From a virus, in IMG/VR virus record IMGVR_UViG_3300014819_000001, positions 1 through 64,000 of that record: a DNA stretch of 64,000 bases; one strand, given 5' to 3'. Position numbers and translations under genes: made by a program. Of the stretch, positions 4,415 through 43,108 are shown piece after piece (within the stretch, counting starts at the first letter, position 1; every line of letters begins with the position of its first letter). The notes under the pieces are model-generated. The model was given only the letters and a program-made list of their open reading frames with translations. It was not told the origin of the DNA and made no database searches.

Positions 4415-5611
4415 ATGATAGATAAAATTCACTTCAAACGCTTAATCGGCGATCTCAAAGATTCGGGCAAATATCGTGTGTTCAACAATATAGTCCGTGA
4501 AAAAGGTAGTTTTCCGAACGCAATTTGGTATGGTCCATACGCAATCAAGAACATCGTTAACTGGTGCTCTAACGATTACCTCGGAATGGGTCAGCACAAA
4601 GTTGTCATAGACGCAATGCACACTGCACTAGATCAAACTGGTTCAGGGTCAGGTGGTACTAGAAACATCGGCGGGACCAGTACTTATCACGTTGCTTTGG
4701 AAACAGAACTAGCATTCCTACATCGTAAGGATCGTGCTTTATTATTCAGCAGTGCTTATGTGGCTAATGAATGGAGCCTTATAGCATTGAGTAAAATTGT
4801 ACCTAATATACACTTTGTCAGCGACAGTAAAAACCACAATAGTCTAATAGTAGGTATAAGTCATAGTAAGGCTCCAAAGAGTGTGTTTACTCATAATGAT
4901 ATGGAAAATCTTGAAAGCATATTAAAATCAGTTAGAGATGCTGGAGAGACTCCTTGCGTAGTGTTTGAGAGCGTTTATAGTATGGATGGCGATGTTAGCA
5001 CTATGGTAGAAATTTGTGACCTTGCTGACAAATATGAAGCCATTACCTATATTGATGAAGTACATGCAGTTGGCCTATACGGTGAACGCGGTGCAGGTAA
5101 ATTAGAAGAACTTAAACTACAACATCGTGTGGACATTGTAAATGGTACATTGGGCAAGGCCTATGGTGTACAGGGTGGATATATAGCAGCAGATCAAGAA
5201 GTGGTAGATGCTATACGCAGTATAAGTCATGGCTTTATTTTTACAACATCAATGAGTCCTGTTAGTTGTGCTGGTGCATTATCAGCAGTTAAGTATCTTA
5301 AAGAACATAATGAAATAAGAGAAAAGCATCAGGAGCGTGCCAATAGACTAAAAACATTATTAAAACAAAATAATCTTCCACTTATGAATACTAGCACACA
5401 TATTGTGCCTTTACTCGTAGGTAATGCTGTTCGTGCTAAGGCCATGAGCGATGCCCTATTGGAAGATCATAACATATATGTTCAGCCCATAAATTATCCT
5501 ACAGTGGCAGTAGGCACAGAGAGACTACGTTTTGCTCCAACTCCATATCATGATGATGGTATGATGGAGAAGTTAATTATTGGATTGAAGGATGTGTTTA
5601 TTCGGATCTAA
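4415..5611 (+). CDS. hemA: 5-aminolevulinate synthase (ALAS)
   Basis: 398 residues, the normal length for bacterial ALAS, a PLP enzyme that condenses glycine and succinyl-CoA to 5-aminolevulinate, the first step of the Shemin (C4) heme pathway. Visible signatures are [10 protein letters not shown], the glycine-rich [25 protein letters not shown] (cofactor-stacking His about 141), YIDEVHAVG (Asp214, His217) and NGTLGKAYG with the Schiff-base Lys248. GGTRNI followed by a YH and [12 protein letters not shown] favour ALAS over the related 2-amino-3-ketobutyrate ligase or BioF. Apparently complete and intact. It is the only plus-strand gene in a minus-strand stretch, has its own late-type promoter, and overlaps dps convergently by 14 nt. 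A second heme gene, hemF, lies at 43.2-44.1 kb. Phage-borne ALAS genes have been reported from aquatic viromes. Confidence 0.92.
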
Positions 5612-6041
5612 GACTTGCACGTAGCATCCAGCGATGTTTGCTATGTGCATCAACCCTTTCAGCAATAAAATTACTAAAGCCATACTCGTTATGGCTTTCG
5701 CTTGTTTGAAACACCATTTTAAGTAATTTAATTAATTTTTCATTATCTTCTAATAACATTGCTACCATTTGTTCTTTAGGTAGTATGCTAGTTTCATCTT
5801 CAATAGTGGTCAACATATTAAATCTTGCTAGACTGGCGGGTACATAAGTTCCCATAGCACGTATTTTTTCAGCAAAGTCATCTATACTAGCATATACTTC
5901 TTCGTATATTTTACCAAACAAATCATGGTATTCTAAAAAGTCTGGGCCCTCTACATTCCAATGAAAGTTATGAGCCTTTAGATAAAAACTAAAGGTGCTG
6001 GCAAATGCTACTTTGGCGGCCTTGTGCAGTTGTTCCATCAT
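5598..6041 (-). CDS. dps: Dps-like ferritin-fold DNA-protection/iron-storage protein
   Basis: 147 residues from ATG at 6041; a GTG at 6047 is also in frame. The Dps ferroxidase signature is clear: [20 protein letters not shown] followed by [11 protein letters not shown], giving the H-x-x-H-W and D-x-x-x-E ligand pattern shared between subunits of the dodecamer. Dps oxidises Fe(II) with peroxide, stores iron and shields DNA. The short tail after the fourth helix lacks a long Lys-rich DNA-binding extension. The start overlaps the stop of the nuclease gene upstream (ATGA). Sitting next to hemA it suggests an iron/heme-related function, which is inference. Confidence 0.88.
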
Positions 6042-6475
6042 TGACACCAGCTGGTCTTGGCTTCTCCGTAATATTCACGGGCGAACCCATTCTTGATAAG
6101 TTCAGCTCGTAGGCTAACTCCGTTTAGAATCATATCACCTAATACTCGGCCACCGTATTTGTCCCAGCCATATAGTATGACCTGATGCTTTTGTGTACTG
6201 GCCACGGCCTTTTTAGTGAACTCTGTGGCTGCTAGTCCACGTTGTTTTTCTGATTCACATTTGGCGAGATAATTCTTCTCTGGCGTATCCACACCGTAAA
6301 TACGAACTGCTAGTTCTGGCTTTAATGGTGATGGAAGGAATGGAGCAGCAATAACTACTGTGTCACCATCGCTTACTCTGACGATTTGTGCATCATATGT
6401 AACGCCCTGTGGTTGTTTTTGTGCATAGGCCACGCTAATGAATAATAGTGTTAATAATGTTATAATAGTTTTCAT
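6038..6475 (-). CDS. Secreted staphylococcal-nuclease-like (SNase) protein
   Basis: 145 residues. The N-terminus (MKTIITLLTLLFISVAYAQ) is a typical signal peptide with likely cleavage after AYA. The mature part is an SNase/thermonuclease OB-fold: VSDGDTVVI, AVRIYGVDTPE (catalytic Arg and Asp), then YGWDKYGGRVLGDMILNG and the ending ELIKNGFAREYYG. It would be exported to the periplasm and cut nucleic acids in a calcium-dependent manner. An AATAAATA octamer at 6483-6490 (minus) lies 7 nt upstream of the ATG. Confidence 0.82.
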   Translation of the reverse strand: MKTIITLLTLLFISVAYAQKQPQGVTYDAQIVRVSDGDTVVIAAPFLPSPLKPELAVRIYGVDTPEKNYLAKCESEKQRGLAATEFTKKAVASTQKHQVILYGWDKYGGRVLGDMILNGVSLRAELIKNGFAREYYGEAKTSWCQ

Positions 6476-8316: not shown

Positions 8317-8865
8317 TTAGAAGATTGATTGGACAAAATCGTTGCTGCTCTTTTCTACACTTTGAAGCCATTGATCCTTTAGGTCATGATTGAATACTAG
8401 ATTATAATCAGCACTGGCTATTAGCCAACTTGCATTACGATCTCTTGGTGGTGTGCCATCATACTCATCTTGTAGTTGATCAGGATTCCATCCACATAAT
8501 CCTAAAAATAATCTAAAATGTTTAGGGGCATCGCCATCGCCTAACCTTGGCAATAGGTCATCACTACTGCTTAGACAGAACTCGTTATTGACCTGCATGG
8601 TATTACTGCCTTGCCATTCACTACTATGCAGCATGGTTAATGCCTTTATATTTACTGGGCCACCTACATATATAAATCCTGGTATGTTGAGTCTTTCACC
8701 AATTTGTTCAGTAAAGTCTGAAATAGTAACACTGCTGCGTTTATTAAGTATCAGTCCCATACTACCATTTATATGATCCTCTGTGATAAAAATAACACTT
8801 TTGTACCAAAAACCCGTTTTCATTTTTGGTGGGGCAATAAGTAATTTTCCTGTAAAATTCATCAT
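8317..8865 (-). CDS. UPF0301/AlgH (YqgE, DUF179) family protein
   Basis: 182 residues, close to the bacterial length of about 187. The N-terminal segment FTGKLLIAPPKMKTGFWYKS, then VIFITEDHINGSMGLILN, with YVGGPV and the ending FLGLCGWNPDQLQDE match the AlgH family point by point. Function is not established in bacteria; it has been linked only loosely to transcriptional regulation. It is translationally coupled to the endolysin gene upstream, whose TGA stop overlaps its ATG. Confidence 0.82.
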   Translation of the reverse strand: MMNFTGKLLIAPPKMKTGFWYKSVIFITEDHINGSMGLILNKRSSVTISDFTEQIGERLNIPGFIYVGGPVNIKALTMLHSSEWQGSNTMQVNNEFCLSSSDDLLPRLGDGDAPKHFRLFLGLCGWNPDQLQDEYDGTPPRDRNASWLIASADYNLVFNHDLKDQWLQSVEKSSNDFVQSIF

Positions 8866-9602
8866 GTGTATTTTGGAGTTGCTGCCTTTGCATAAGCTAT
8901 ACGACGACCAGTATGTTCTCCACTGCTTCTTTCATAGTATTTGTCAAAAATCATAGCTGCTTCTTCTGGTGTCCTTGCTGTACTTAGCATCTGTCCTGCT
9001 CTACGTTCTGTATTTTGTAATTCCCAATGAATAAATGCTAATTGCTCATCTAATGTACTTTGTCTGATATCTTTCTTAAAGATACGTCTAAAGTTTGCTT
9101 GTCTAGGTAGATGCCATTGAGCTATTCCGTAGGCTTTACCACTATCACCTACAGCTCTATGATTAAGATGTACTCCACTTTCAGCCTTGAGATTACCTAC
9201 TATACCTGCCGCTTGAGCAGGAGTATAGCCTTTGTTAATAAAATATCTAGTGGCATATTTGGCAACGGCTGTGGTCTTACCTGCACTAGGAACATGTTTG
9301 ACATTCATAACGCCGTTATTAGGTTTAACATCAGCCTGTGTGCTCTGTGGTAAGTTTATGCCCTTATCCTTCAACATACTGTTGATAATGTTGATCATTT
9401 CTGTATCAGGACTACCATTGATAGTTAACTTATGATCTTTCTCAAATTGAGCAATTACTTTTTTAATTTCTGTATTAGCAATACCGTCAATACCAAATTG
9501 ATTAAGTTTGTATCCGAGTGCAGATAGTGCTTTTTGTAAGTCTGCCCATTCTGGTCCACGACTACCTCTGGGTACGCTAATATCAAATTCTTTAAGACGC
9601 AT
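8862..9602 (-). CDS. Endolysin: peptidoglycan-binding domain plus phage tail lysozyme
   Basis: 246 residues. After a linker, residues about 12-75 form a PG_binding_1-type domain (GPEWADLQKALSALGYKLN, FGIDGIANTEIKKVI). Residues about 120-240 match the phage-tail lysozyme family: YTPAQAAGIVGNLKAESGVH with the catalytic Glu, then GKAYGIAQWHLPRQ, EQLAFIHWELQ and the ending RRIAYAKAA. It would cleave the glycan strand. The N-terminus, MRLKEFDIS, fits the capsid-targeting-like pattern with an L-K-E site, so it may be virion-borne rather than a classic lysis enzyme. The start overlaps the preceding stop (TAATG). Confidence 0.82.
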   Translation of the reverse strand: MRLKEFDISVPRGSRGPEWADLQKALSALGYKLNQFGIDGIANTEIKKVIAQFEKDHKLTINGSPDTEMINIINSMLKDKGINLPQSTQADVKPNNGVMNVKHVPSAGKTTAVAKYATRYFINKGYTPAQAAGIVGNLKAESGVHLNHRAVGDSGKAYGIAQWHLPRQANFRRIFKKDIRQSTLDEQLAFIHWELQNTERRAGQMLSTARTPEEAAMIFDKYYERSSGEHTGRRIAYAKAATPKYT

Positions 9603-12890: not shown

Positions 12891-13128
12891 AGTTGAACAT
12901 AAGGACCTACTAGGACGTAAGGTAGAAGTGGGTGACTTTGTGGCCTTCTCCCAAAGTAATACTATCTATGTTGGCCGTGTGATAAAATTAAATTCTAAAA
13001 TGTTGAGATTACAACACATAAGACAATGCAGGTGGTTGGCCGATGAGGTGAACAAGTACTCAAAAGATTGTGTGCTACTACCCAGTCGTGACATGGACTT
13101 TTACTTATTAAGGGTGGCTTCAAAATGA
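12877..13128 (+). CDS. Hypothetical protein, small beta-barrel-like
   Basis: 83 residues. VEVGDFVAFSQSNTIYVGRV resembles an SH3-like or KOW beta barrel, with no known catalytic residue. It ends YLLRVASK, a faint echo of the LRW endings of the following genes. Overlaps its neighbours by 14 and 4 nt inside one operon. Confidence 0.55.
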   Translation: MNVIEVEHKDLLGRKVEVGDFVAFSQSNTIYVGRVIKLNSKMLRLQHIRQCRWLADEVNKYSKDCVLLPSRDMDFYLLRVASK

Positions 13129-13325
13129 AAATGAGCAGTGTGGAAGTAGGCCTATTTAGACTACCAGGTGTTGTGTTCGAACGTGATTCACTTACTCAAG
13201 ATAAAGTGGAAGAAATCAATGCCTGGTGTGCGGAGAATAACTGTGGTCGGCAGATGACTGATGTACTATGGAGTTTCAAAAAGCCTACTCAACGTGACTT
13301 GTTCATCTTAAGGTGGAGTGAATGA
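13125..13325 (+). CDS. Small protein, WC...FxLRW family member
   Basis: 66 residues. It shows the two marks of a local paralogue family: a W-C pair (EINAWCAENNCGR) and a C-terminal LFILRWSE. Members are tiny, of different sequence otherwise, and packed head to tail with 4-nt overlaps. No known domain recognised. Confidence 0.6.
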   Translation: MKMSSVEVGLFRLPGVVFERDSLTQDKVEEINAWCAENNCGRQMTDVLWSFKKPTQRDLFILRWSE

Positions 13326-13531
13326 ATACACTGCCCTTATTGCCTTATTATAAAAATGCCTGTGACTACTATTATACCAACATATGGCAAGGTGGTAAGG
13401 TAGAAGTTCAACCTTGGTTGAGAGCAGAATTCGACGCTGGTGTCGCAGTGGGCCGTTGCCATCTCATATTCACTAGCAGTAAAAAGAGAAACTGGTTTGC
13501 TCTACGCTTTGGAGAATCATATGAACTCTGA
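13322..13531 (+). CDS. Small protein, FxLRW family member (diverged)
   Basis: 69 residues ending KKRNWFALRFGESYEL, where Trp of the LRW motif is replaced by Phe. The start overlaps the previous stop by 4 nt. Contains a Tyr-rich stretch (CDYYYTNIW). Function unknown. Confidence 0.55.
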   Translation: MNTLPLLPYYKNACDYYYTNIWQGGKVEVQPWLRAEFDAGVAVGRCHLIFTSSKKRNWFALRFGESYEL

Positions 13532-13823
13532 TGAAAATAAAAAGATTATATCTGGCCTATTGAGCATACTCAACGCCAAGGCAAGATATTTTTGGGAAGC
13601 CCAGGGTAAGTTAGAACTGGTATTGAAGGCAGAGTTGGATACAGGTAGTGGCCCAAAGATATTAGCACCAGATGCTTATATAGTACATCCTATACAAGAG
13701 TGGTGTTTGGAGAATAACTGTGGTAGACGTATGAGTTATGACACTTTTAGGTTTCGTAATCAAAAACAAAAAACCTTGTTCCTACTACGTTGGGAAGGCG
13801 TAAGTGACGACCACCAATTTTAG
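13521..13823 (+). CDS. Small protein, WC...FxLRW family member
   Basis: 100 residues from ATG 13521, with GGAG upstream; it overlaps the previous gene by 11 nt. QEWCLENNCGRRMSYDTFRF is nearly the same as the WCAENNCGR segment of the gene at 13125, and LFLLRWEG follows, so the two are recent relatives. An N-terminal helical extension of about 50 residues is unique to this member. Confidence 0.6.
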   Translation: MNSDENKKIISGLLSILNAKARYFWEAQGKLELVLKAELDTGSGPKILAPDAYIVHPIQEWCLENNCGRRMSYDTFRFRNQKQKTLFLLRWEGVSDDHQF

Positions 13824-13995
13824 AGGTTGGTATGTGGTAAGTACCTATCAACCAGATGGGAATACTGCCTGGACACCTTTGTTTAGGTGGTGCGAAGAAA
13901 CATTTGAACCGAGGACTTGGAGTTATGAGGGGGAGGGTGTGTTTGCTTTTCAAAATGAACGAGATGCCAATTGGTTTGCATTGAGGTGGATATGA
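13804..13995 (+). CDS. Small protein, WC...FxLRW family member
   Basis: 63 residues, GTG start with GGAAGG upstream. Shows FRWCEETFEP, then GVFAFQNERDANWFALRWI, the clearest form of the family pattern WC ... F-x-F ... WF-x-L-R-W. Overlaps both neighbours. Confidence 0.6.
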   Translation: MTTTNFRGWYVVSTYQPDGNTAWTPLFRWCEETFEPRTWSYEGEGVFAFQNERDANWFALRWI

Positions 13996-14339
13996 ATATT
14001 GGACATTCAGGAAAACATAAAGTATCTAAATTATTATTCAATCAATTATTTGTTAAAGTAGAGGAACCTATAATGAAAAAAGGTAAGATGGATCGTAGAA
14101 TGAAAGGTCATTATTATTTTGATTTTTACGTTGAATTTAGTGTATTAGATAGATTAAAGTTTGACGAAGTTCGTAGATGGTGCTACGCTACATTTGGTCC
14201 CAGCAGTGAATTAGCTATTTGGTTTTATTATCCTAGTGAAGAACGTGCTAACTGGTGTTGGATAGTTGATGACTATCGTTGTAAGTTATTGTTTAAGTCT
14301 AGCAAAGAATATAACTGGTTTCAACTCAAATACACATGA
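13992..14339 (+). CDS. WFxLKY family member, longer form
   Basis: 115 residues from ATG 13992 (GAGGTGG upstream); ATG 14074 also has a fair ribosome site. Carries VRRWCYATFG and ends KEYNWFQLKYT. The middle (GHYYFDFYVEFSVLDRLKFD) resembles a beta-alpha unit of a ferredoxin-like fold. Function unknown. Confidence 0.55.
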   Translation: MNIGHSGKHKVSKLLFNQLFVKVEEPIMKKGKMDRRMKGHYYFDFYVEFSVLDRLKFDEVRRWCYATFGPSSELAIWFYYPSEERANWCWIVDDYRCKLLFKSSKEYNWFQLKYT

Positions 14340-14385
14340 TATCTAGATAAAATGCTACTAGAACTGGCACGATAGTAAATACGTG

Positions 14386-14601
14386 ATGATAAAAGTCACA
14401 GTGCCAAACGAACACACTGGACAACTGATTGATATGGTTCGTGAATTAAAAAGTCAAGGCTTGGTACAGGGCAAGGATTTTGATTTTAGGTTTATGCCTG
14501 CCATCTATGATTTTATGAATAGTCACAGTGAACCAAGACACGCGGTGTTCAGTTTTTATGAGGAGAAGTGGGCAACATGGTTCACACTGAAATGGCTGTA
14601 A
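14386..14601 (+). CDS. WFxLKW family member
   Basis: 71 residues from ATG 14386 (GTG 14383 also possible). Ends KWATWFTLKWL and lacks the W-C pair. A GTAAATA element at 14375-14381 lies 4 nt before the start, so this gene may have its own late-type, leaderless transcript. Confidence 0.55.
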   Translation: MIKVTVPNEHTGQLIDMVRELKSQGLVQGKDFDFRFMPAIYDFMNSHSEPRHAVFSFYEEKWATWFTLKWL

Positions 14602-14801
14602 ATGATTTAGGTTATTTGGAGATACATCCTGGATGGACATATACTCTTAAAACCTACTGTAAACGCTGTGATGACCTATATGATATGTTTGACTGGTGTG
14701 ATCAAAAGATTGGCAAGTGCGGTGAGGATTGGGACTTTCAAGTTAATAGGTTTTTATTTCGAAGAGGGCGTGACTGTACATATTTTACATTGAGGTGGTG
14801 A
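14577..14801 (+). CDS. WC...YFTLRW family member
   Basis: 74 residues from ATG 14577, overlapping the previous gene by 25 nt; the exact start is uncertain. Shows CKRCDDLYDMFDWCDQ and ends RDCTYFTLRW with the stop directly after Trp. Five cysteines. Confidence 0.55.
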   Translation: MVHTEMAVNDLGYLEIHPGWTYTLKTYCKRCDDLYDMFDWCDQKIGKCGEDWDFQVNRFLFRRGRDCTYFTLRW

Positions 14802-14802
14802 T

Positions 14803-15096
14803 ATGGCTGGATTTAAGAGTAAACGAGCAATGGGTGTTGCTACATTTGGTATGCCCAAGGTAGCAAAGGATCCTCCGGTGAATGTGCTGAACAAGTTAGA
14901 CAATGGCTTTTATCTAGTGGCCTTTAATAAGGAAGCCATAGATGATTTTAGGAGTACTTATAAGGATAAAGAAGGTACAGCCTGGCAAGAATATTTAGAC
15001 AATGAATATATTATCTATCGTCGTAGATTAGAAGTTAGAGAAGACTTAGTCACATTATTAAAACTAAAATATACCCAGCACCTGGATCATAGTTGA
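14803..15096 (+). CDS. Hypothetical protein
   Basis: 97 residues, basic at the N-terminus, with LKLKYT near the C-terminus as a weak relic of the LKW/LKY ending. A GAGGTGG ribosome site precedes ATG. No domain recognised. Confidence 0.5.
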   Translation: MAGFKSKRAMGVATFGMPKVAKDPPVNVLNKLDNGFYLVAFNKEAIDDFRSTYKDKEGTAWQEYLDNEYIIYRRRLEVREDLVTLLKLKYTQHLDHS

Positions 15097-15106
15097 TATA
15101 TACTAG

Positions 15107-15391
15107 ATGTTAAACAAAGTCAAAGCCTTTTGGCACCATAGTTATACTACTGATCGTAGGGCCTTCTATTTAGAGATGATGGCCAGTATCTGCGTAGTCA
15201 GTACTACATTTGCCATTGCTTGGATGGCCTATCATCCTCCAATGGAATACATATACCCTGTTAGTTTTGTAGGCGCTGTATTCAGTATATTAGCCTACTG
15301 GCGTAGACAGTTAGCTTGGCCTTTTTTATTAACCTGTTATTTTGCCTGTATTCATGTATTTGGATTTGGGCGTGCTGTGGGGTATTGGTAA
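15107..15391 (+). CDS. Small membrane protein, two to three transmembrane segments
   Basis: 94 residues. Hydrophobic stretches at MMASICVVSTTFAIAWM, PVSFVGAVFSILAYW and PFLLTCYFACIHVFGFG predict three membrane helices with a short cytoplasmic N-terminus. The stop overlaps the next start (TAATG). No family recognised. Confidence 0.6.
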   Translation: MLNKVKAFWHHSYTTDRRAFYLEMMASICVVSTTFAIAWMAYHPPMEYIYPVSFVGAVFSILAYWRRQLAWPFLLTCYFACIHVFGFGRAVGYW

Positions 15392-16209
15392 TGCCAAATG
15401 TAGTACAACTACCTGAAGTATTAACTAGAAATGATTTTGTATCTATGATACCAAAATCGGCTCTTACCTTGGAAATAGGCCCATATAATAATCCTACGTT
15501 GAAGAAAAGTCAGTTTCCTAATGTACGCTATATGGACCTGTTTACCATAGACCAAATCCGTGCAGATAAAGATCGTTATACTAATGTAGGTGAAATGCCA
15601 GATCATATTGATATTATAGTTGACCCAGAACAACGCCCTACCTTTAAGACAGACCTTAAATTTGACTACATCTATAGTGCTCATAATATAGAACATCACC
15701 CTGATATCATATATCACTTAAACGAGATGGCTGGATTAGCACAAGGTATGCATACCAAATACTTTTTAACAGTTCCAGACAAGCGTTATTGTTTTGATTA
15801 TTATCAACACACCAGTGAGTATACTGATATGATTGAAGCATACCTCGAACAGCGTAAAAGTCATAGCTTAGGTAGTTATTTACGACACACAGTATTTGCC
15901 ACACACAACAATATATATGAACATTGGCATGGTATTCATGGGGAAGATCCTAGAACTATAGATATTAACATTAATCATGCTACTAACATTAGACATAAGT
16001 TAGATAGTGCAAGGGACGAACGTCAACGTAAGTTTGCTGATATTCATGCTTGGTATTTTACTGACAAAAGTTTTATGTACACAATTAATATGTTAAATCA
16101 ATTAGGTCTACAACCGTGGCGTGTGGAAACTGTGACTCCACCACAACATATGACTCCAGAGTTTCATGCAGTAATGAGCCTAACTAGATATGTCAACACA
16201 AGAAATTAA
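15391..16209 (+). CDS. SAM-dependent methyltransferase-like protein
   Basis: 272 residues from ATG 15391. TLEIGPYNNPTLKK is motif I, YMDLF after the second strand supplies the acidic residue for the ribose, FDYIYSAHNIEHHPD is motif IV, and KYFLTVPDKRYCFDYYQHTS follows. This order matches class I methyltransferases often found in polysaccharide or lipid modification loci (methyltransferase type 11 style). The start overlaps the membrane-protein stop (TAATG), and the stop is inside the next gene. Target unknown. Confidence 0.72.
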   Translation: MPNVVQLPEVLTRNDFVSMIPKSALTLEIGPYNNPTLKKSQFPNVRYMDLFTIDQIRADKDRYTNVGEMPDHIDIIVDPEQRPTFKTDLKFDYIYSAHNIEHHPDIIYHLNEMAGLAQGMHTKYFLTVPDKRYCFDYYQHTSEYTDMIEAYLEQRKSHSLGSYLRHTVFATHNNIYEHWHGIHGEDPRTIDININHATNIRHKLDSARDERQRKFADIHAWYFTDKSFMYTINMLNQLGLQPWRVETVTPPQHMTPEFHAVMSLTRYVNTRN

Positions 16210-16489
16210 ATTAGCAGAAGGCATTACTGCCATGTACAAGTTCATAGATAGCGAATGCTACGACTGGATTGTTTTAGCCCGTGTACCTATTGAAACACAA
16301 GATCCAAATTACTTTGCAGAAGAATATTTAAAGAGCTTTTTAGAAAGTACATATGGATCATGGTGTTTAAAGAATGTTAAAGATATAGAATATAAATTTA
16401 AACCAGGTGAAAAAACTCTATTTGATTTTGAATTGTTTGGCTATATCAAACCAGTTAAACTCACTGAGATGCGTATAAGATTTACATGA
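16190..16489 (+). CDS. Hypothetical protein
   Basis: 99 residues, overlapping the methyltransferase by 20 nt. Alpha/beta look with WIVLARVPI and FDFELFGYIKPVKL strands. No recognised family. Confidence 0.5.
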   Translation: MSTQEIKLAEGITAMYKFIDSECYDWIVLARVPIETQDPNYFAEEYLKSFLESTYGSWCLKNVKDIEYKFKPGEKTLFDFELFGYIKPVKLTEMRIRFT

Positions 16490-16725
16490 AGCAGCATTAT
16501 AGATACTTTTTTGTACTGCTAAAAGTATATTCAGATTATAAAAAATCAAACCCTTTAAGCATACAAATGGATACTAACTTTGCTGAATATGCTTTAGATA
16601 CCTATGGCATAGAAATATTGTTCGAGCCAAATGGACTGATACGTCCAGCATATAATATCAAAGATCCTAAAAAACACATTTTGTTCATGTTAAAATACAG
16701 CGATTTAATAGGTGAATTACAATGA
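16486..16725 (+). CDS. Small protein, LFMLKY-ending family member
   Basis: 79 residues. Ends with KHILFMLKYSDLIGELQ, a variant of the FxLRW ending, preceded by a beta-rich YRYFFVLLKVYSDY. Overlaps both neighbours by 4 nt. Confidence 0.5.
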   Translation: MKQHYRYFFVLLKVYSDYKKSNPLSIQMDTNFAEYALDTYGIEILFEPNGLIRPAYNIKDPKKHILFMLKYSDLIGELQ

Positions 16726-17099
16726 TTAAACAGGTAAATGCAGGTAAAGGAATCAATGTTATTAATAATTATAATTCCTATCCACATATAAGTCCAGGTA
16801 GTAATGGTGCTGGTATGGTGCGATGGAACAGTAATTCAAATTGTTTTGAAGTGAATGATGGGGCAGTTTGGCGACATATAACAATGAGTGATCCTACTAT
16901 AGAACTCAGCTCAGACGCTATTTCTGCTATAGAATGGGCACAGGCTCAAATGTTTAAAGAAAGAATGAGAGAACAACGTATTAAGAATAATCCTGCTCTA
17001 CAAAAGGCCTATGAAGCTATTCAACGAGCAGAGGCTAACTACGATATATTAGATAAGATTATAGGAGAGAAAAACAGTGTCCAACACCACCCTGTATGA
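16722..17099 (+). CDS. Hypothetical protein with structural-type N-terminus and helical C-terminus
   Basis: 125 residues. GAGMVRWNSNSNCFEVNDGA followed by VWRHI is the GxxRxN...xFEVxDGxxW pattern common in phage tail-associated proteins; residues 65-115 form an amphipathic helix (coiled coil). Its 3' end lies inside the 70-bp direct repeat (17048-17117), so its last residues may have been changed by that duplication. Confidence 0.55.
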   Translation: MIKQVNAGKGINVINNYNSYPHISPGSNGAGMVRWNSNSNCFEVNDGAVWRHITMSDPTIELSSDAISAIEWAQAQMFKERMREQRIKNNPALQKAYEAIQRAEANYDILDKIIGEKNSVQHHPV

Positions 17100-17117
17100 A
17101 TATGATAGAGAGCCACA
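17048..17117 (+). repeat. 70-bp direct repeat, copy 1
   Basis: Nearly identical (two differences by eye) to 18653-18722. It includes AGGAGAGAAAAAC, the GTG start region and the codons for SNTTLYEYD of the gene at 18682. In this copy the GTG frame stops after 15 codons. The two copies bracket the SGNH-like gene pair. Confidence 0.8.
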
Positions 17118-17242
17118 GTTATAAACAGCCCATCTACCATCAGATGATAGACCATAATATCTTTGGTTATAGATATGCCAAATCCGCTTTCCTCAAAGAA
17201 AAAGACTATACCTACTATTGTCTAAAATGGGCAGATAAATAA
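17102..17242 (+). CDS. Tiny protein ending CLKW, paralogue of the gene at 18682
   Basis: 46 residues from ATG 17102. IYHQMIDHNIFGYRY and YTYYCLKWADK match YQQFIDHYSMGYAY and YTFWCLKWGKA of the 18682 product. The 18682-type GTG start at 17077 is out of frame with this segment, so it is either a shortened but working copy or a decaying one. Confidence 0.45.
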   Translation: MIESHSYKQPIYHQMIDHNIFGYRYAKSAFLKEKDYTYYCLKWADK

Positions 17243-17258
17243 ATTTTTAGGAATTAAT

Positions 17259-17927
17259 GTGAGTAACTTAGGAAGAATCTGGATTTTTGGGGATGAATAT
17301 GGTGCCAAAGAATCTGACCTTGAAACTTATCACGACGTTCTGTTAAAACTGCTTGGTGTCCCTATTTTTAATTTTGCCAAAGAATTCACTTCTCAAGAAT
17401 ATTGTTTTCATACAGTAGTCGAAAATATTAGAAGTTTCTCTGACAACGATCTATTAATAATTTTTTTAACTGATATCAGGAGAGAATGGTTTTTTTCTGC
17501 ATTCCCAGATAAGTCGGATTTACAAACTATTCTACGAGCTTTTGGATCTAAGAAAAAGGATTTTTATGAAAATTTTTTTCAGCGTTATCAGCCTATTCAT
17601 ATAAAACAAGACCGTCAAAAACTTTTTATTAATTACATTAAATTACTGACGAAAGATTATTATCATTGTCCTTTAATTATTAAATCTTTCCCTAATAGTA
17701 GTGAAATGGAATTTCTTTCATCTATAGGAGACATGGAGGCAATTAGTCGTGGTGAATTTAAAAATCAAAATTATTTTTTAAACACTCAAAAAAGGCCCAA
17801 TAATTTATCTCAATCCAATCATCAACTATTTGGCAATAAAATCGTATCATATTTAGAAGGAAAATCCTTTAGTTTAACTAAAGGATTTGTTAAAAACCTA
17901 TATCAAAGTAAGGACGAATTAAAATGA
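17259..17927 (+). CDS. SGNH-hydrolase-like protein A
   Basis: 222 residues, GTG start. RIWIFGDEYGA replaces the usual GDS(F/L) block, so the nucleophile Ser may be lost here (GDEY). Middle strand LLIIFLTDIRREWFF. The end (NNLSQSNHQLFGNKIVSYLE) matches the NHLSEINH block of its neighbour, the position of the catalytic Asp/His region in SGNH enzymes. It is a paralogue of the next gene and AT-richer than its surroundings by eye. A GATAAATA sequence sits upstream at about 17234. Degenerate catalysis or a binding role is possible. Confidence 0.5.
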   Translation: MSNLGRIWIFGDEYGAKESDLETYHDVLLKLLGVPIFNFAKEFTSQEYCFHTVVENIRSFSDNDLLIIFLTDIRREWFFSAFPDKSDLQTILRAFGSKKKDFYENFFQRYQPIHIKQDRQKLFINYIKLLTKDYYHCPLIIKSFPNSSEMEFLSSIGDMEAISRGEFKNQNYFLNTQKRPNNLSQSNHQLFGNKIVSYLEGKSFSLTKGFVKNLYQSKDELK

Positions 17928-18574
17928 TTGAAAAAGTATGGGTTTTTGGAGATAGTTTTGCTGTGTTCGATAAGTTCTACGTAAAGTTAGTTACCTATCA
18001 TAGTATAATTACTGAATCCTTGCAGATTCCAGTTGAATCTTTAGGGGCTGACGGAAGCTCTTTTGAGTATTGTGTTCACACATTTTTAGAAACAGTAGAA
18101 CATATAGAGCCAAATCATCTTCTCATTTTTTTTATAACAGATAGAAAACGAACCTGGTTTGTAAAAGATAACCCTTGGCAAGCCTACCCTCATGCTTTAA
18201 GAATATTGGATGCAAAATTTTTTGACGAATGGTGGGTTGAAAAACCTTTACATGTAGAACATATAACGGAAAAAATTTTTTTTAATTATGTAGATCAATT
18301 AACTAAAAATTTCGAAAAAGCTCCAATTTTTATCCAAAATTTTCTACATAGTCCTTACAATTTTCCCAAATCTCTAAATGTTGCCAATGGTACTATCTAT
18401 GAAATTAGTAAGGATGAATACACAAAAAGATTAGATCAACATACGGATATTAGAGCAAACCATTTGTCAGAGATTAACCACAAGGTTCTAGCAACTAAAT
18501 TTATAGATTATATACAAGGACGAGAAAAAACAGTTGATTTAACAAGTGGTTTCGCTTCAAAATTCCTAAACTAA
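17924..18574 (+). CDS. SGNH-hydrolase-like protein B
   Basis: 216 residues. KVWVFGDSFAVFDKF holds the GDSF block with a plausible catalytic Ser, GADGSSFEYCVHTFLE the glycine/oxyanion region, NHLLIFFITDRKRTWF a core strand, and RANHLSEINHKVLATKFIDY the C-terminal DxxH-like site. This family hydrolyses esters, including acyl groups on polysaccharides. Coupled to its paralogue by an ATGA overlap; the pair sits between the 70-bp repeats, suggesting it entered as a unit. Confidence 0.55.
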   Translation: MIEKVWVFGDSFAVFDKFYVKLVTYHSIITESLQIPVESLGADGSSFEYCVHTFLETVEHIEPNHLLIFFITDRKRTWFVKDNPWQAYPHALRILDAKFFDEWWVEKPLHVEHITEKIFFNYVDQLTKNFEKAPIFIQNFLHSPYNFPKSLNVANGTIYEISKDEYTKRLDQHTDIRANHLSEINHKVLATKFIDYIQGREKTVDLTSGFASKFLN

Positions 18575-18600
18575 GACGGATTCGCAAAATAAAAAATTCC

Positions 18601-18629
18601 TTGACATATCCTAGTTTATTCAGTATAAT
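18601..18629 (+). promoter_or_regulatory. Perfect consensus promoter TTGACA-17-TATAAT
   Basis: TTGACA 18601-18606 and TATAAT 18624-18629 with a 17-bp spacer. It restarts transcription for the genes from 18682 onward, after the SGNH-like pair. Confidence 0.8.
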
Positions 18630-18652
18630 ACATACATGAATAACCCACTGTG

Positions 18653-18722
18653 ATTAGATAAGATTATAGGAGAGAAAAACCGTGTCCAACACCACCCTGT
18701 ATGAATATGATAAAGAGCCACC
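18653..18722 (+). repeat. 70-bp direct repeat, copy 2
   Basis: Second copy of 17048-17117. Here the GTG frame is intact and opens the 119-residue gene at 18682. Confidence 0.8.
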
Positions 18723-19041
18723 TTGGCTAGTACATTTGGATAAAAAAACAGGATTACCCATCAAAGTGTATAATGTATGTGTACATAAGTTTAAGATGGG
18801 GGATGTTGAAGATCCTGAAATCTATGCTGCTGGACCATTGTTAGATTGGCAAAATAGTGAAGCAGGTAAGTGGGTAATGGAACACGCTGAAGAACCTCCT
18901 ACATATCAACAGTTCATTGACCATTACTCAATGGGCTATGCTTATAACGTCTACGCCAAACTGGCAGATAAGAACTATACATTTTGGTGCTTGAAATGGG
19001 GCAAAGCGACCACACCCCAAGATATCTTAAAGAATACCTAA
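18682..19041 (+). CDS. Hypothetical protein, CLKW family member
   Basis: 119 residues, GTG start with AGGAGAG upstream. PTYQQFIDHYSMGYAYNVYA and YTFWCLKWGKA near the C-terminus relate it to the tiny protein at 17102 and, more distantly, to the FxLRW family. Function unknown. Confidence 0.55.
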   Translation: MSNTTLYEYDKEPPWLVHLDKKTGLPIKVYNVCVHKFKMGDVEDPEIYAAGPLLDWQNSEAGKWVMEHAEEPPTYQQFIDHYSMGYAYNVYAKLADKNYTFWCLKWGKATTPQDILKNT

Positions 19042-19265
19042 GCAATTTTATTTGGTATCACGTGGATGAGATGCATACCAGTGATATAGCTGCTTGGTTG
19101 GTTAATCACGGTCGTCAATATAGAGATTGGACTGTGATTGAAGGCCATATGTATGAGAATGCCTGCTTTGTTTATATAAGAGATCGCAGAGTGGGTATGT
19201 TGTTTGAAATCACATTCAGCGAATATATCTTAAACAAATATCTTGACAACCCATCAGACTTCTAG
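18984..19265 (+). CDS. Hypothetical protein (start uncertain)
   Basis: Up to 93 residues. Overlap with the previous gene is 58 nt if started at 18984; ATG 19071, with GGATGAG before it, would give 64 residues and no overlap. AAWLVNHGRQYRDWTVIEG followed by YENACFVYI looks like the WC/W...F unit of the small-protein family without the LRW ending. Confidence 0.45.
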   Translation: MVLEMGQSDHTPRYLKEYLSNFIWYHVDEMHTSDIAAWLVNHGRQYRDWTVIEGHMYENACFVYIRDRRVGMLFEITFSEYILNKYLDNPSDF

Positions 19266-21448: not shown

Positions 21449-22096
21449 ATGAAAAAACTACTAACAATCGTGCCCAGTAGAGGCAGAAATCTACAACATA
21501 TAGAATTTATAAAAAACTTTCAAGAAAAAAGTCGTGTTAGTGAATTATTGATTGGGTTGGATGACGATGATCAAGCCAATTATGAACGACAACCTAATGT
21601 AATGTATGAAGTCAATCCTAGGATGAGAGTGATAGGTACAACAAATAAATTGGCCAATATGTATGTAGATCAGTATGAATACTTTGGCTTTATGGGTGAT
21701 GATCATAGACCCAGAACAGATGCTTGGGACGAACTACTAATTGAAAGTATTAAAGACAAGCGATTTGGTATAGCCTATGGTGAGGACAAGGTAAAAGGCG
21801 TTATGATGCCGACTGCTGTGATCCTAAAAAGCGAAATTGTAAAGATATTGGGTTATATTGGTCCTCCTACTCAAATACACTTGTGCATTGATACCTTTTG
21901 GAAAAACTTAGGTAATGCTCTTGGTACATTAACTTGGAACCCTCATATTGTTATCGAACATATGCATCCATTAAGACGTAAAGCACCAATGGATCAAACC
22001 TATGAAGATGCATATGCTCTACAAAAACAGGATTTGAAAAGTTTTAAAAAATATATGAAACATACCTTTCCTCAAGAGCTGGCCAAATTTAAATGA
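21449..22096 (+). CDS. Glycosyltransferase-like protein (GT-A type), tandem copy 1
   Basis: 215 residues. KKLLTIVPSRGRN at the start, ELLIGLDDDDQANYERQ, and EYFGFMGDDHRPRTDAWDEL with an acidic DDH in the DxD position fit a nucleotide-sugar-binding GT-A fold. The C-terminal HIVIEHMHPLRRKAP carries a His pair that often completes metal binding. It has a close paralogue directly downstream. An AATAAATA octamer (21435-21442) is 6 nt from ATG. Confidence 0.65.
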   Translation: MKKLLTIVPSRGRNLQHIEFIKNFQEKSRVSELLIGLDDDDQANYERQPNVMYEVNPRMRVIGTTNKLANMYVDQYEYFGFMGDDHRPRTDAWDELLIESIKDKRFGIAYGEDKVKGVMMPTAVILKSEIVKILGYIGPPTQIHLCIDTFWKNLGNALGTLTWNPHIVIEHMHPLRRKAPMDQTYEDAYALQKQDLKSFKKYMKHTFPQELAKFK

Positions 22097-22149
22097 TTAG
22101 ATATACATCTCGCAAGAATTGGACATTAAAAAAACTATTTTATAAATAA
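22093..22149 (+). pseudogene. Truncated copy of the gene at 22798
   Basis: Reads MIRYTSRKNWTLKKLFYK then stop. The first 14 residues are those of the 53-residue gene at 22798; the rest is missing. It is the scar of the glycosyltransferase tandem duplication: about 58 bp after each glycosyltransferase stop are nearly identical. Confidence 0.65.
22141..22148 (+). promoter_or_regulatory. Perfect T4-type late promoter TATAAATA
   Basis: TATAAATA ends 5 nt before the ATG at 22154, implying an mRNA start at or beside the start codon. Confidence 0.6.
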
Positions 22150-22153
22150 TATT

Positions 22154-22801
22154 ATGAAAAAACTATTAACTATTATCCCTAGCAGATGGCGTAATGAAAA
22201 TCATAAGGCCTATGCACAGAACTTTTTTGAAAAGAGTCGTGTGTCTGAATTACTCATAGGGTTGGATGATGACGATGCTCATAACTATGAAAGACTTCCT
22301 AACGTATTATATGAAGTCAACCCTAGACTACGATTAGTAGGTACTACGAATCTACTGGCCAATAAGTATTGCAATGAATACGAGTATTTAGGATTTATGG
22401 GGGATGATCATAGACCTAGGACAGACGGTTGGGATGAATTGTTGATTGATTCTATCAAACATTTACCCTTTGGTATTGCCTACGGTAATGATCTAATCAA
22501 AGGTAAGAGATTACCAACTGCCGTAATATTTAATAGTGAAATAGTTAGAAGAGTTGGTTACATGGGTCCGCCAACTCTAGTGCATTTATGGATGGATAAT
22601 TTTTGGTTAGAATTGGGCAGGGCCTTAGGTAGTATTGTTTATAACCCAAATGTCATTATTGAACATTTGCATTATGTTAGGCGCAAGGCACCTTGGGACC
22701 AAACATATGTTGAAGCTAACGGTTTTAAAGAAAAGGATAGAAAACAATGGGAACTCTATATGAGAAATCAATTTCATTTAGATGTCGCCAAATTTAAATG
22801 A
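22154..22801 (+). CDS. Glycosyltransferase-like protein (GT-A type), tandem copy 2
   Basis: 215 residues, same length as copy 1. Shared blocks: KSRVSELLIGLDDDD, EYLGFMGDDHRPRTDGWDEL, RRKAPWDQTYVEA. Differences spread over the whole length show an old duplication. Likely uses a different acceptor or donor. It is followed by the intact 53-residue gene of which copy 1 has only a stub. Confidence 0.65.
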   Translation: MKKLLTIIPSRWRNENHKAYAQNFFEKSRVSELLIGLDDDDAHNYERLPNVLYEVNPRLRLVGTTNLLANKYCNEYEYLGFMGDDHRPRTDGWDELLIDSIKHLPFGIAYGNDLIKGKRLPTAVIFNSEIVRRVGYMGPPTLVHLWMDNFWLELGRALGSIVYNPNVIIEHLHYVRRKAPWDQTYVEANGFKEKDRKQWELYMRNQFHLDVAKFK

Positions 22802-24651: not shown

Positions 24652-25377
24652 ATGTTAAAACTATTCTATCATATCTACACAACCGATGATCAATATGGCA
24701 GTTTATTCTTTGTAGACGAACAGATCAAACGACTACAATATAGTGAACTAATTGATGAAGCCAGTTGTTTTGCAGTGATCACAGGCCCTGCAGCCAATGC
24801 TGTTTGGTACTTGGTGGATCGTAGTAGACGATTCAGAATATTAGATTATGACGAATCCCCAGTAGATCCCTTGTACGAAGGACGTACACTGAAACAAATC
24901 TATGATCTTACCACAGAGGATGATCAAATAATCTATATTCATACCAAAGGTATTAGCTATCTTTTAGGAGATAGAACATTAAACGGCCAACTCAGTGTTA
25001 GAAATTTCAAATCCATAAATGGTTGGCGTGACACTATGGAACACTATTGTATAGATCAATGGCAACAGAGATTAGCCGCTAAGTACTGGCACACACAAGG
25101 CTGTTTTCTACGTACAGATCCATGGCCTCACTATATGGGTAATATGTGGTGGGCTCAAGGTAGTTATATTCGATCATTACCAGATCCTTTGACCTTTCCA
25201 GTGAAATCATATCCAGGTATGCAATTTGCAGAAACAGCTCCAGAACGTATGAGATACGAACAATGGATATTACTAAATCCTGGAGCTCATATGGATCTAA
25301 AACCAATCCCCAAAAACAAAAATCAAGATGGATACACTAGTGAATTTACTCCGTATGAAGATGAATTAGGACTATGA
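24652..25377 (+). CDS. Glycosyltransferase-like protein, member 1 of four tandem paralogues
   Basis: 241 residues. Shared marks of the four: the start KLFYHIYTTDD, EGRTLKQIYDL, IIYIHTKGISYL (strand with a conserved His-Thr-Lys-Gly), NGWRDTMEHYCIDQW, and HYMGNMWWAQGSYIRSLPDP. HTKG and GNxWWA occur in predicted capsular glycosyltransferases, so a transferase role is inferred. It begins 2 nt after the terminator T-run and overlaps the next member. Confidence 0.6.
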   Translation: MLKLFYHIYTTDDQYGSLFFVDEQIKRLQYSELIDEASCFAVITGPAANAVWYLVDRSRRFRILDYDESPVDPLYEGRTLKQIYDLTTEDDQIIYIHTKGISYLLGDRTLNGQLSVRNFKSINGWRDTMEHYCIDQWQQRLAAKYWHTQGCFLRTDPWPHYMGNMWWAQGSYIRSLPDPLTFPVKSYPGMQFAETAPERMRYEQWILLNPGAHMDLKPIPKNKNQDGYTSEFTPYEDELGL

Positions 25378-26207
25378 TTAAAGTATACTATCATATCTAT
25401 ACAAGCCAAAATCATAGAGTTGGTATGCTAATGGTGGATAACCAAATACGCAGACTCAAACGCAGTGGATTGTTCGATCGTGCAGATGAACTCAACTGTG
25501 TGATAGTAGGACCTTATGCTGAGGATATAGCAGAACTGGTTAAGATGCATGGAAAGTTTCGTATATTAGAAACCAGTTTAGATGATAAGGAATCAGAGTT
25601 TGAAGGACGTACATTAAAGCATCTATGGCGTGATGCCAAACCAGATGATAAGATAATGTATATGCACACCAAAGGTATCAGTTATGTTACAGCAGAAAAC
25701 AAGGTAAACAATTATGTTAGTCCACGCAACCTTAGAGCAGTGAATGGCTGGCGTCAAGGCATGGAATATTTTTGTATAGATGATTGGCGATGGCAAATTA
25801 GTGGACTAGGCAAGGCCTATCAAACTGTGGGCATCATACTATTATTTTGGCCCTTTTATATGTATGGCGGTAACTTTTGGTGGGCTACTGGTAGTCATGT
25901 TAGAAAACAGGCCGAACCTATAAGTTGGCCAGGACATGACTATGAGGCTAGACAACAAGAAGATAGCATAGATACCAATCCCATGACCATAAGTCGTATG
26001 CGTCATGAACAGTGGATATTCAGCCGTCAGGACGGTAGTTATTATAGTTGTCTATTCAATATACTAGATATTCCTAAAGATGATGAATTTCACTTATGTC
26101 GTAGTTTTTGGCTTTATGAAGATGATATTACTCCTTATGTTATCAAGCAGAAATATTATCTTAAAAAACAAATACGCCATAACGAAGACCCTCCTCCTGT
26201 AGATTAA
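25374..26207 (+). CDS. Glycosyltransferase-like protein, member 2 of four
   Basis: 277 residues. Blocks: KVYYHIYTSQNH, EGRTLKHLWRDA, IMYMHTKGISYV, NGWRQGMEYFCIDDWRWQ, YGGNFWWATGSHVRKQ. The longest member, with an extra C-terminal segment after about residue 225. Stop/start overlap with member 1. Confidence 0.6.
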   Translation: MIKVYYHIYTSQNHRVGMLMVDNQIRRLKRSGLFDRADELNCVIVGPYAEDIAELVKMHGKFRILETSLDDKESEFEGRTLKHLWRDAKPDDKIMYMHTKGISYVTAENKVNNYVSPRNLRAVNGWRQGMEYFCIDDWRWQISGLGKAYQTVGIILLFWPFYMYGGNFWWATGSHVRKQAEPISWPGHDYEARQQEDSIDTNPMTISRMRHEQWIFSRQDGSYYSCLFNILDIPKDDEFHLCRSFWLYEDDITPYVIKQKYYLKKQIRHNEDPPPVD

Positions 26208-26219
26208 GATACATACAAT

Positions 26220-26978
26220 ATGGCAAATAAACTATACTATCATATCTATACCAGTGCTGATGTTGTAATGAATCAGTTCTTAATAGATGATCAATTAAAA
26301 AGATTACAATGGAAAAATATTGCAGGTAATGTAGAATGCTACTGTACTATCAGTGGTTATAATGTTTTCCCTGCTCTAGACCTTGTCAATAAGCACAGAG
26401 ATTGGCTCAAAGTATTAGAATGGGAAGAAAACGATCCAGGTGGAGAATTTGAAGGACGCACATTAAAGCACTTATGGAAGGATGCTGAACCTGGTGATCG
26501 CATTTTCTATATGCACACTAAAGGTATTAGTTTTCTCAGTGGATTTAGAAATTGGGGGGACGACAGTTATAGGTTCGGACCCCGTAATGTTAAAGCCATA
26601 CACAGTTGGCGCTTGGTCATGGAAACTACTCTACTAGATGTATGGACCCAGCGTGTCAAAGAATTAGATCGTTTTGATACCATAGGCTGTTATTATTTGG
26701 ATGATCCATTTCCTCACTATATGGGCAACTTTTGGTGGGCTACTGGAGATCATATACGCAAGCTCAAACATCCATTTGACTTTTTAGTATTACCCTATCC
26801 TAATATGCACATACAAGAATGCACACCAGAACGTATTAGATACGAACAATACTTGTTCAGCGCACAGGGGTATCATATGAATGCTAGAGCTTGGCCATGG
26901 CATATTACTCCTGATCTACGAGAGCCAGGTTATAGCCCAGGCGTTAATCCTTATGAAGATGATTTTGCGGCACTATGA
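26220..26978 (+). CDS. Glycosyltransferase-like protein, member 3 of four
   Basis: 252 residues. Blocks: KLYYHIYTSADV, EGRTLKHLWKDA, IFYMHTKGISFL, HYMGNFWWATGDHIRKLKHP. Closest in layout to member 1, including the ending PYEDDF versus PYEDEL. Twelve bases separate it from member 2. Confidence 0.6.
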   Translation: MANKLYYHIYTSADVVMNQFLIDDQLKRLQWKNIAGNVECYCTISGYNVFPALDLVNKHRDWLKVLEWEENDPGGEFEGRTLKHLWKDAEPGDRIFYMHTKGISFLSGFRNWGDDSYRFGPRNVKAIHSWRLVMETTLLDVWTQRVKELDRFDTIGCYYLDDPFPHYMGNFWWATGDHIRKLKHPFDFLVLPYPNMHIQECTPERIRYEQYLFSAQGYHMNARAWPWHITPDLREPGYSPGVNPYEDDFAAL

Positions 26979-27784
26979 TTAAACTATACTATCACATCTA
27001 TACCAGTAGTCATAAAATATTAGGACTGAGTTTTGTAGATCAACAAATGAGAAGAATCTATGTCAGTGGTATACACAGATACGCAGAACTTAATTGTCTT
27101 ATACATGGACCTTATCATAAAGAAGTAGAAGAGATAGTGCATAGATATGATAAGAATTGGCGTATATTAGAGTCTAGGCCAGATGATCCTGGTGCTCAGC
27201 GTGAATGTAGAACATTAAAATATATTCATGCAGAAACTAGGCCAGAAGATTTAATATTATTCCTACATACCAAGGGTATCGCTATACACAGTGGTGAAAA
27301 TCGTATACATGGACTTACCTTACCACGTAACCTACGTGCCGTAAATAGTTGGCGTTATGCTTTGGAATACCTCTGCATTGATGAATGGCGTAGTCGTGTT
27401 AATAGATTAAGAACACAGCCAATAGATACAGAAAGTGCCTTTATGAACTTGGAACCATATTGGAACTATTGTGGTAATATTTGGTGGAGTAAGGGCAGTC
27501 ATATTCGACAATTACCTGATCCTACTACTATGGAAGGTATAGATTTCAAAAATGCTGCTCGTAGTTGGCTATTTTGGCACAAGGGAAATCATACAAGTAT
27601 ATTTCACGTGTTGGATAAACCACGTGAAGATGGTAGAGGGGGATATGGTACATTCCGTCTACATGAAGATGATCTAATGAAATATCTAATACATCATAGA
27701 GATAGTCCTGAACATGCTAGTATTACACAACTTACTCCAGAAGCCATGCAACAATTAGAAAAGTTCTTCATTGTAAGACAATAA
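26975..27784 (+). CDS. Glycosyltransferase-like protein, member 4 of four
   Basis: 269 residues. Blocks: KLYYHIYTSSHK, ECRTLKYIHAET, ILFLHTKGIAIH, NSWRYALEYLCIDEWR, YCGNIWWSKGSHIRQLPDP. The HTKG and GNxWW cores are kept although the rest has diverged, so selection on the same activity is likely. Confidence 0.6.
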   Translation: MIKLYYHIYTSSHKILGLSFVDQQMRRIYVSGIHRYAELNCLIHGPYHKEVEEIVHRYDKNWRILESRPDDPGAQRECRTLKYIHAETRPEDLILFLHTKGIAIHSGENRIHGLTLPRNLRAVNSWRYALEYLCIDEWRSRVNRLRTQPIDTESAFMNLEPYWNYCGNIWWSKGSHIRQLPDPTTMEGIDFKNAARSWLFWHKGNHTSIFHVLDKPREDGRGGYGTFRLHEDDLMKYLIHHRDSPEHASITQLTPEAMQQLEKFFIVRQ

Positions 27785-42454: not shown

Positions 42455-43108
42455 ATGGCCAAGCCCCGAGCAGCAGTTTTGCTGAACCATCCCCAGTGTA
42501 GCCTACACAGTGCACACGGTCTAGTAAGGGTATTGTCATCTTTATATGGACTCACCAACGTAGACTGTATCAGTCCAGACCAGTTAACCTTACAGAGATT
42601 ACGTAAGTATCAGTTATTCTGTGTGCCCGGTGGCCTAGGGGATGCGGACAGTTGGCATAGATTATTAGAGCCCTCCAAGCCCTTAGTCCAGCAGTACTGT
42701 TTAGAGGGTGGGCATTATCTTGGCATCTGTATGGGAGCCTACTGGGCCGGTCCCTTATATTTTGATCTAGTCAAGGATATCAATCCAGTGCAGTATATTC
42801 GGCGTCCCGGAGCCAGTGTACGTCGTAGTTACAGCACAGTAGTTAATGTTACTTGGATGGGTCATAATGAAACCATGTTTTTTTATGATGGGTGTAGCCT
42901 ATTAGGAGCCAAGCCTTCTAGTAGCATAGCCAGTTATACTAATGGTGACTGTGCGGCCCTAATTGAGGGTAGGGTTGGTCTAATTGGGCCTCATCCAGAG
43001 AGTGACAGTTTTTGGTATATGGATCGCTATATGCAGCAGCATTGGCATCAGTATACTCATCATGCTTTGTTAGCAGATTTCATAAGATTATTGGTTAATA
43101 AGTTGTAA
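42455..43108 (+). CDS. Class I glutamine-amidotransferase-like (biotin-protein-ligase N-terminal type) protein
   Basis: 217 residues. FCVPGGLGDADSWHRLL, HYLGICMGAYWAGP (nucleophile elbow G-x-C-x-G with Cys), and GLIGPHPESDSFWY near the end match the BPL_N-like branch of the DJ-1/amidotransferase fold. The catalytic His/Glu pair could be HPES. Reaction unknown. GTAAATA at 42441-42447 is 7 nt from ATG. Codon use differs a little from neighbours (more GTA/CTA). Confidence 0.65.
   Translation: MAKPRAAVLLNHPQCSLHSAHGLVRVLSSLYGLTNVDCISPDQLTLQRLRKYQLFCVPGGLGDADSWHRLLEPSKPLVQQYCLEGGHYLGICMGAYWAGPLYFDLVKDINPVQYIRRPGASVRRSYSTVVNVTWMGHNETMFFYDGCSLLGAKPSSSIASYTNGDCAALIEGRVGLIGPHPESDSFWYMDRYMQQHWHQYTHHALLADFIRLLVNKL

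Follow-up and report, generated by a model that had tools for sequence, protein, structure and literature searches.

Within the analysed window, a 64,000-nucleotide stretch (positions 1 to 64,000) of the 109,473-bp virus record IMGVR_UViG_3300014819_000001, ten small genes lie between positions 13125 and 19041, all on the + strand and mostly with overlapping stop and start codons, and their products share the C-terminal signature F-x-F-(x)n-D-A-x-x-F-x-L-[RKT]-W. We conclude with high confidence, as one joint claim, that these genes belong to a family for which we coin the name FKLxW, defined by the C-terminal profile W...F-x-F...D-A-x-x-F-x-L-x-W, that the family is organised in arrays, and that it evolves in the manner described below.

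Profiles were used because the bare motif, searched as a regular expression, is only weakly enriched (15 matches vs 8.6 in shuffles). A set of about 320 members was assembled by searching related contigs and cultured jumbo phages with profiles, and viral contigs with a DNA pattern that encodes DAMLFKL[TR]W exactly (48 stretches). The hold-out hidden Markov model (HMM) was built from 236 members of other records, excluding the window and its two close relatives, L006 (97%) and L007 (89%), which carry the same array with additional members; because these members had been collected by iterative search starting from window genes, the test is strong, yet not wholly independent. It recovers five window genes at E<=3e-5 (13125, 13521, 13804, 14577 and 18984-19265, the last overlooked in the preliminary description), with 13992 at 0.0096, while the best reversed or shuffled decoy reaches E=0.26. 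The genes at 13322, 14386, 16486 and 17096 are unsupported by this HMM alone (E 0.18-1.3) and 18682 is not listed; 13322, 14386, 16486 and 18682 are linked through pairwise relatives in L100 and L104, and 17096 through 18682. Judged from these comparisons, the array genes are one homologous small-protein family. All ten genes of the preliminary description thus exist, and its view of tandem paralogues that differ strongly from each other is upheld. Across the whole 109,473-bp record, the loose motif outside 13-19.3 kb is confined to spurious-looking open reading frames (ORFs). The members are as follows.

13125..13325, + strand: family gene 1, 66 residues, ends FILRWSE; the LRW codons AGG TGG precede the next start; hold-out HMM E=1.2e-5; L100 orthologue 53%.
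13322..13531, + strand: family gene 2, 69 residues, ends FALRFGESYEL; start overlaps the gene 1 stop; L100 relative 34%, E=1.8e-6; hold-out HMM alone 0.51.
13521..13823, + strand: family gene 3, 100 residues, WC...FRF...FLLRW; hold-out HMM E=2.8e-7.
13804..13995, + strand: family gene 4, 63 residues, the minimal domain; hold-out HMM E=6.6e-9; AlphaFold2 model (see below).
13992..14339, + strand: family gene 5, 115 residues from the ATG at 13992, in which a long insert separates helix 1 from the last strand; hold-out HMM 0.0096; L214 relative 33% over 109 residues, E=2e-16.
14340..14385, + strand: copy-number-variable site; L006 has two extra family genes here (8816-9010, 8995-9237), L007 has an orthologue of the first, after which its gene set differs (three-way DNA alignment and ORFs).
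14386..14601, + strand: family gene 6, 71 residues, divergent, no WC; L104 relative 41%, E=9e-17.
14577..14801, + strand: family gene 7, 74 residues, ends FTLRW; hold-out HMM E=5.5e-7.
16486..16725, + strand: probable family gene 8, the weakest member, 79 residues, ends FMLKYSDLIGELQ; L100 relative 25%, E=2e-5; hold-out HMM 0.97.
17096..17242, + strand: short family gene 9, 48 residues, C-terminal half only; 45% to the 18682 product, E=4e-13.
18682..19041, + strand: family gene 10, 119 residues, ...FWCLKWGKATTPQDILKNT; L100 relative 54%, E=1e-31.
18984..19265, + strand: eleventh family gene, start uncertain, ends ...MLFEITFSEY plus a 14-residue tail; hold-out HMM E=3e-5.

We note that two adjoining paralogues of 222 and 216 residues (17259-18574), starting WIFGDEYG and WVFGDSFA, break up the array; they appear SGNH-hydrolase-like by eye, and the second gene has no Pfam match.

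The family was not recognised in the preliminary description, and the sequence libraries offer no explanation of the motif either. A scan of 103 members against Pfam, NCBIfam, PHROGs and PADLOC returned isolated single-member matches only (best E 0.0027), the FKLxW profile gave no credible match among PDB sequences, and annotated copies are termed 'hypothetical protein' wherever annotation was read. No published description was found in a literature search whose reach excluded subscription journals and supplements. Single-protein tblastn against phages returned almost no matches, because pairwise comparison lacks the sensitivity that such diverged members demand.

Orthologues in the window, L006 and L007 show ratios of nonsynonymous to synonymous substitution rates (dN/dS) that are mostly 0.1-0.25, with pairs carrying few changes scattering up to 0.68, and the pooled pN/pS is 0.18-0.23. 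Hence, the orthologues are under purifying selection, and the rapid divergence under diversifying selection that had been suggested for the array is not supported. The arrays instead change through gain and loss of entire genes, as seen at 14340-14385, where two whole genes are present or absent between near-identical relatives. Within one genome only two copy pairs align well over their length, and the paralogues are therefore old rather than recent amplifications. The BLAST 'best identities' of 70-90% among paralogues of the 417-kb contig G052 were discarded, being short local matches of which only two pairs score well over longer alignments. Single lineages are kept across distant phages, with identities of 53% for 13125, 54% for 18682 and 41% for 14386.

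Part of the signature has a second use. Where members end in LRW, the arginine is AGG in 41 of 85 cases, compared with approximately 13% of all arginine codons in these ORFs. With the distance counted to the true next open-frame start, AGG encodes the motif arginine in 43 of the 65 cases where that start lies 7-16 nucleotides downstream, compared with 3 of the remaining 29 (p=3.6e-7). No codon bias of this kind is seen in members with an LTW ending. Given this dependence of AGG use on where the following frame begins, the terminal codons of a gene probably provide its downstream neighbour with a Shine-Dalgarno site. Overlapping genes often hold ribosome-binding sites inside the preceding gene, and the double use is thus an ordinary device in an unusual setting. 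It explains some of the R in the originally described signature, but not the remaining profile. A shared ending that arose by convergence, imposed by Shine-Dalgarno sites at gene ends rather than by homology, is highly improbable: the next gene's start does partly set the AGG TGG of LRW, but the signature also comprises the upstream W, F-x-F, D-A and F-x-L, the LTW-ending members lack the bias, the 13804 product yields a confident fold model, and separation of members from decoys by the hold-out HMM refutes convergence for most members.

The AlphaFold2 model of 13804-13995, computed from a 103-sequence alignment, is a confident beta-alpha-beta-beta-alpha arrangement (predicted local distance difference test, pLDDT, 85.1; predicted template-modelling score, pTM, 0.71). 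The model of the divergent 14386 product (pLDDT 82.9, pTM 0.57) has only the final strand and helix in common with it, so that the common fold anticipated for the family is predicted for one member with confidence and is unproven for the divergent ones. Foldseek against BFVD gives about 35 matches, one of them with E<0.001, nearly all to uncharacterised proteins of uncultured Caudovirales and one to Atu_ph07. Among these, A0A6J7WFP6 from an uncultured Caudovirales (E=6e-4, TM ~0.73, 43% identity) has the same predicted fold and probably belongs to the same family; it carries no annotation or function. Foldseek against PDB gives no significant match (best E=1.2), and its low-scoring hits, to ribosomal, secretin and ring-building domains, were not used as evidence.

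Conservation is strongest at W (95%), F (84%), A (83%), F (94%), L (93%) and W (79%), with D at 53% and K at 74%. The W-C pair reported for most of the genes is upheld as regards the tryptophan, but cysteine follows it in only 36% of members and leucine in 45%. By helix and strand spacing, the conserved hydrophobic residues would mostly form the core and the C-terminal helix. The conservation profile contains no conserved catalytic set and the family no conserved basic patch. Members are rich in aromatic residues (14% vs 7.5% in other ORFs), with a median isoelectric point (pI) of approximately 6.3 and a net charge near zero, window members ranging from pI 4.6 to 9.1. A DNA-mimic inhibitor of the Ocr type, named earlier as an alternative, is disfavoured, as the members are not strongly acidic.

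The copy-number comparison called for in the preliminary description reveals a range from 0 to 99. The highest numbers of family matches are found in metagenomic jumbo contigs, with 99 (417 kb), 87 (462 kb), 84 (436 kb), 79 (465 kb), 64 (608 kb) and 63 (183 kb). In the first of these, G052, 97 genes at E<1e-3 with a median length of 94 residues amount to about 28 kb of coding DNA and include tandem runs of 29, 18 and 13 family genes. Among cultured phages, Sinorhizobium phage Phosso has 59 copies, Atu_ph07 8 and PA5oct 3, while the profile finds none in phage G, 121Q, RaK2, XacN1, XaC1, SCTP-2, BcepSauron, CcrColossus, S-CRM01, PTm1, Vibrio phage 2.275.O, P-SSM2, HTVC008M or T4. In Phosso, clusters lie for instance at 6.7-9.5 kb, 12.9-14.0 kb and 369.5-371 kb. 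One family absent from the searched libraries makes up 59 genes of Phosso and about 28 kb of a 417-kb phage contig; therefore, this jumbo-phage clade owes much of its 'ORFan' content to one repeated family, a long list of unknown genes is reduced to a single testable question, and a cultured system, Phosso on Sinorhizobium, is at hand.

A conserved two-domain version of about 220 residues (KKIYYKK...VTRKQLFY) is present in four jumbo contigs and may represent the family's ancestral or core form.

L213:8174-8872, - strand: two-domain relative.
L262:11082-11837, - strand: two-domain relative.
L263:9758-10417, + strand: two-domain relative.
L264:16955-17614, - strand: two-domain relative.

In two small phage contigs, family members lie near an integrase or resolvase, an accessory position. 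The exact DNA pattern, which catches the most typical members only, is found in 3 of 84,980 bacterial and archaeal species genomes. These are Novosphingobium guangzhouense (L230, NZ_LYMM01000033.1), where two family members lie close to each other, a Rhizobium (L228) and an Alkaliphilus (L229).

In all likelihood, the window record itself is one piece of a T4-related jumbo phage near PA5oct and Atu_ph07, because the gp41-type helicase that it encodes (47840-49252, minus strand) shares about 50% identity with the PA5oct, Phosso and Atu_ph07 helicases and metagenomic relatives of the phage reach 357 kb. G001, whose helicase is the most similar (82% identity), yields no FKLxW match in the profile search; since only one methyltransferase-like gene of the array neighbours is detectable there, no syntenic empty site can be drawn.

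Taken as a whole, our best explanation, which we hold tentatively, is that the expanded array constitutes a repertoire of binding-scaffold effectors. The array is an operon-like set of one small single-domain family, greatly expanded in a T4-related jumbo-phage clade. Each copy may serve as a binding scaffold, suggested because conserved catalytic residues are absent, with its own surface and a variable N-terminal part, and may be retained for binding a different protein of the host or of a competing element during infection. Host-takeover or counter-defence effectors of this kind would be renewed by birth and death of whole genes and not by rapid point evolution. The role in host takeover or anti-defence proposed in the preliminary description is plausible. 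That the members are host-takeover or counter-defence binding proteins is the functional assignment we rank highest, ahead of nucleic-acid regulators, although with somewhat less assurance than the explanation as a whole. In the most far-reaching form, one beta-alpha-beta-beta-alpha scaffold would have been multiplied across the genome into as many as about 100 binders, every one directed at a host target of its own and having its ribosome-binding site in the previous coding end. This form is doubtful; if true, it would represent a modular host-takeover arsenal built out of a single fold. A non-structural accessory role is indirectly indicated by the proximity to integrase or resolvase genes, by the wide copy-number variation within the clade, and by PA5oct, where none of the three family members carries an electrospray tandem mass spectrometry (ESI-MS/MS) note and many neighbours do.

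Several observations weigh against such an effector repertoire. Purifying selection and old copies are compatible with any conserved function, and the fold agreement of the 14386 model is limited as described above. Most copies must be dispensable, because the same-clade phages G001, Atu_ph07 and PA5oct keep only 0-8. PADLOC comprises defence proteins, so that its scan covered defence and not anti-defence families, and we found no data on when any member is expressed, what it interacts with or what phenotype it confers.

Alternatively, the members may be nucleic-acid-binding regulators, each acting on different transcripts or promoters, which we consider unlikely. Small nucleic-acid-binding folds commonly have a beta-alpha-beta-beta-alpha core, and the aromatic-rich composition would also suit such a role, but the near-neutral charge, the median pI and the missing basic patch do not, and solved structures give no significant Foldseek match. 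Support by precedent comes from Bacillus phage G, in which a zinc-ribbon family has expanded to about 35 copies (Iyer et al. 2021, PMC7824862). Somewhat less probable is a largely non-adaptive expansion, in which easily duplicated cassettes fill headful-packaged genomes and persist since each gene end supplies the next ribosome-binding site. The double-use AGG codon, the large copy-number differences between related phages and the proposal by Hua et al. (PMC5646251) that genes accumulate once the capsid has enlarged all agree with it; however, every lineage with enough changes to measure is under purifying selection, the frames are intact, and orthologues of individual members can still be recognised in distantly related phages. 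That the members are virion or internal-head proteins, which would travel with the genome and be injected, appears more improbable again: jumbo phages have many small virion proteins, and in Atu_ph07 112 virion-associated proteins were found in addition to the predicted structural set (PMC6102473), but mass spectrometry flagged many neighbours and none of the PA5oct copies, bearing in mind that very small proteins are easily missed.

Expansion of small proteins in jumbo phages is already known (PMC5646251, PMC7824862), though none of the cases tested is of this family. The lineage-specific tandem expansion described in 2017 (PMC5646251) resembles FKLxW in arrangement, but its copies are described as very similar, whereas FKLxW copies are old and strongly diverged, and the tandem array of phage 121Q has no FKLxW profile match at E<=1. 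Phage G is likewise a jumbo phage in which a single small domain recurs many times; its zinc ribbons, however, contain two conserved cysteine pairs as compared to the single, partly conserved cysteine (36%) of FKLxW, and it belongs to a different clade, without profile match, while FKLxW reaches about 99 copies. Segmental amplification of dmd-tifA in T4, where the copy number of an 85-residue counter-defence protein changes by recombination (Srikant et al. 2022, PMC9391042), may serve as a model for how such arrays begin; the T4 copies are identical, recent and laboratory-selected, unlike FKLxW.

Elsewhere in the window, further tandem paralogues are present, four at 24652-27784 (241-277 residues) and two at 21449-22801 (215 residues), both sets glycosyltransferase-like by eye. 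The window also holds a rich set of metabolic genes. The gene at 4415-5611 resembles a 5-aminolevulinate synthase by eye, Pfam assigning the aminotransferase class only, and 43170-44051 encodes a coproporphyrinogen III oxidase (Pfam E=2.8e-123); AlaS has already been described in phage, in a report that leaves HemF unmentioned (PMC11480375). Pfam further identifies a DAHP/KDO8P-synthase-type protein (60855-61682), a carbamoyltransferase (49261-50721), and ferritin-like (5598-6047), AlgH-like (8317-8865) and BPL_N-domain (42455-43108) proteins. Finally, the gene at 45798-47030 encodes, ahead of a C-terminal region, an adenylate/guanylate cyclase catalytic domain (Pfam E=1.6e-8), which is unusual in phage.

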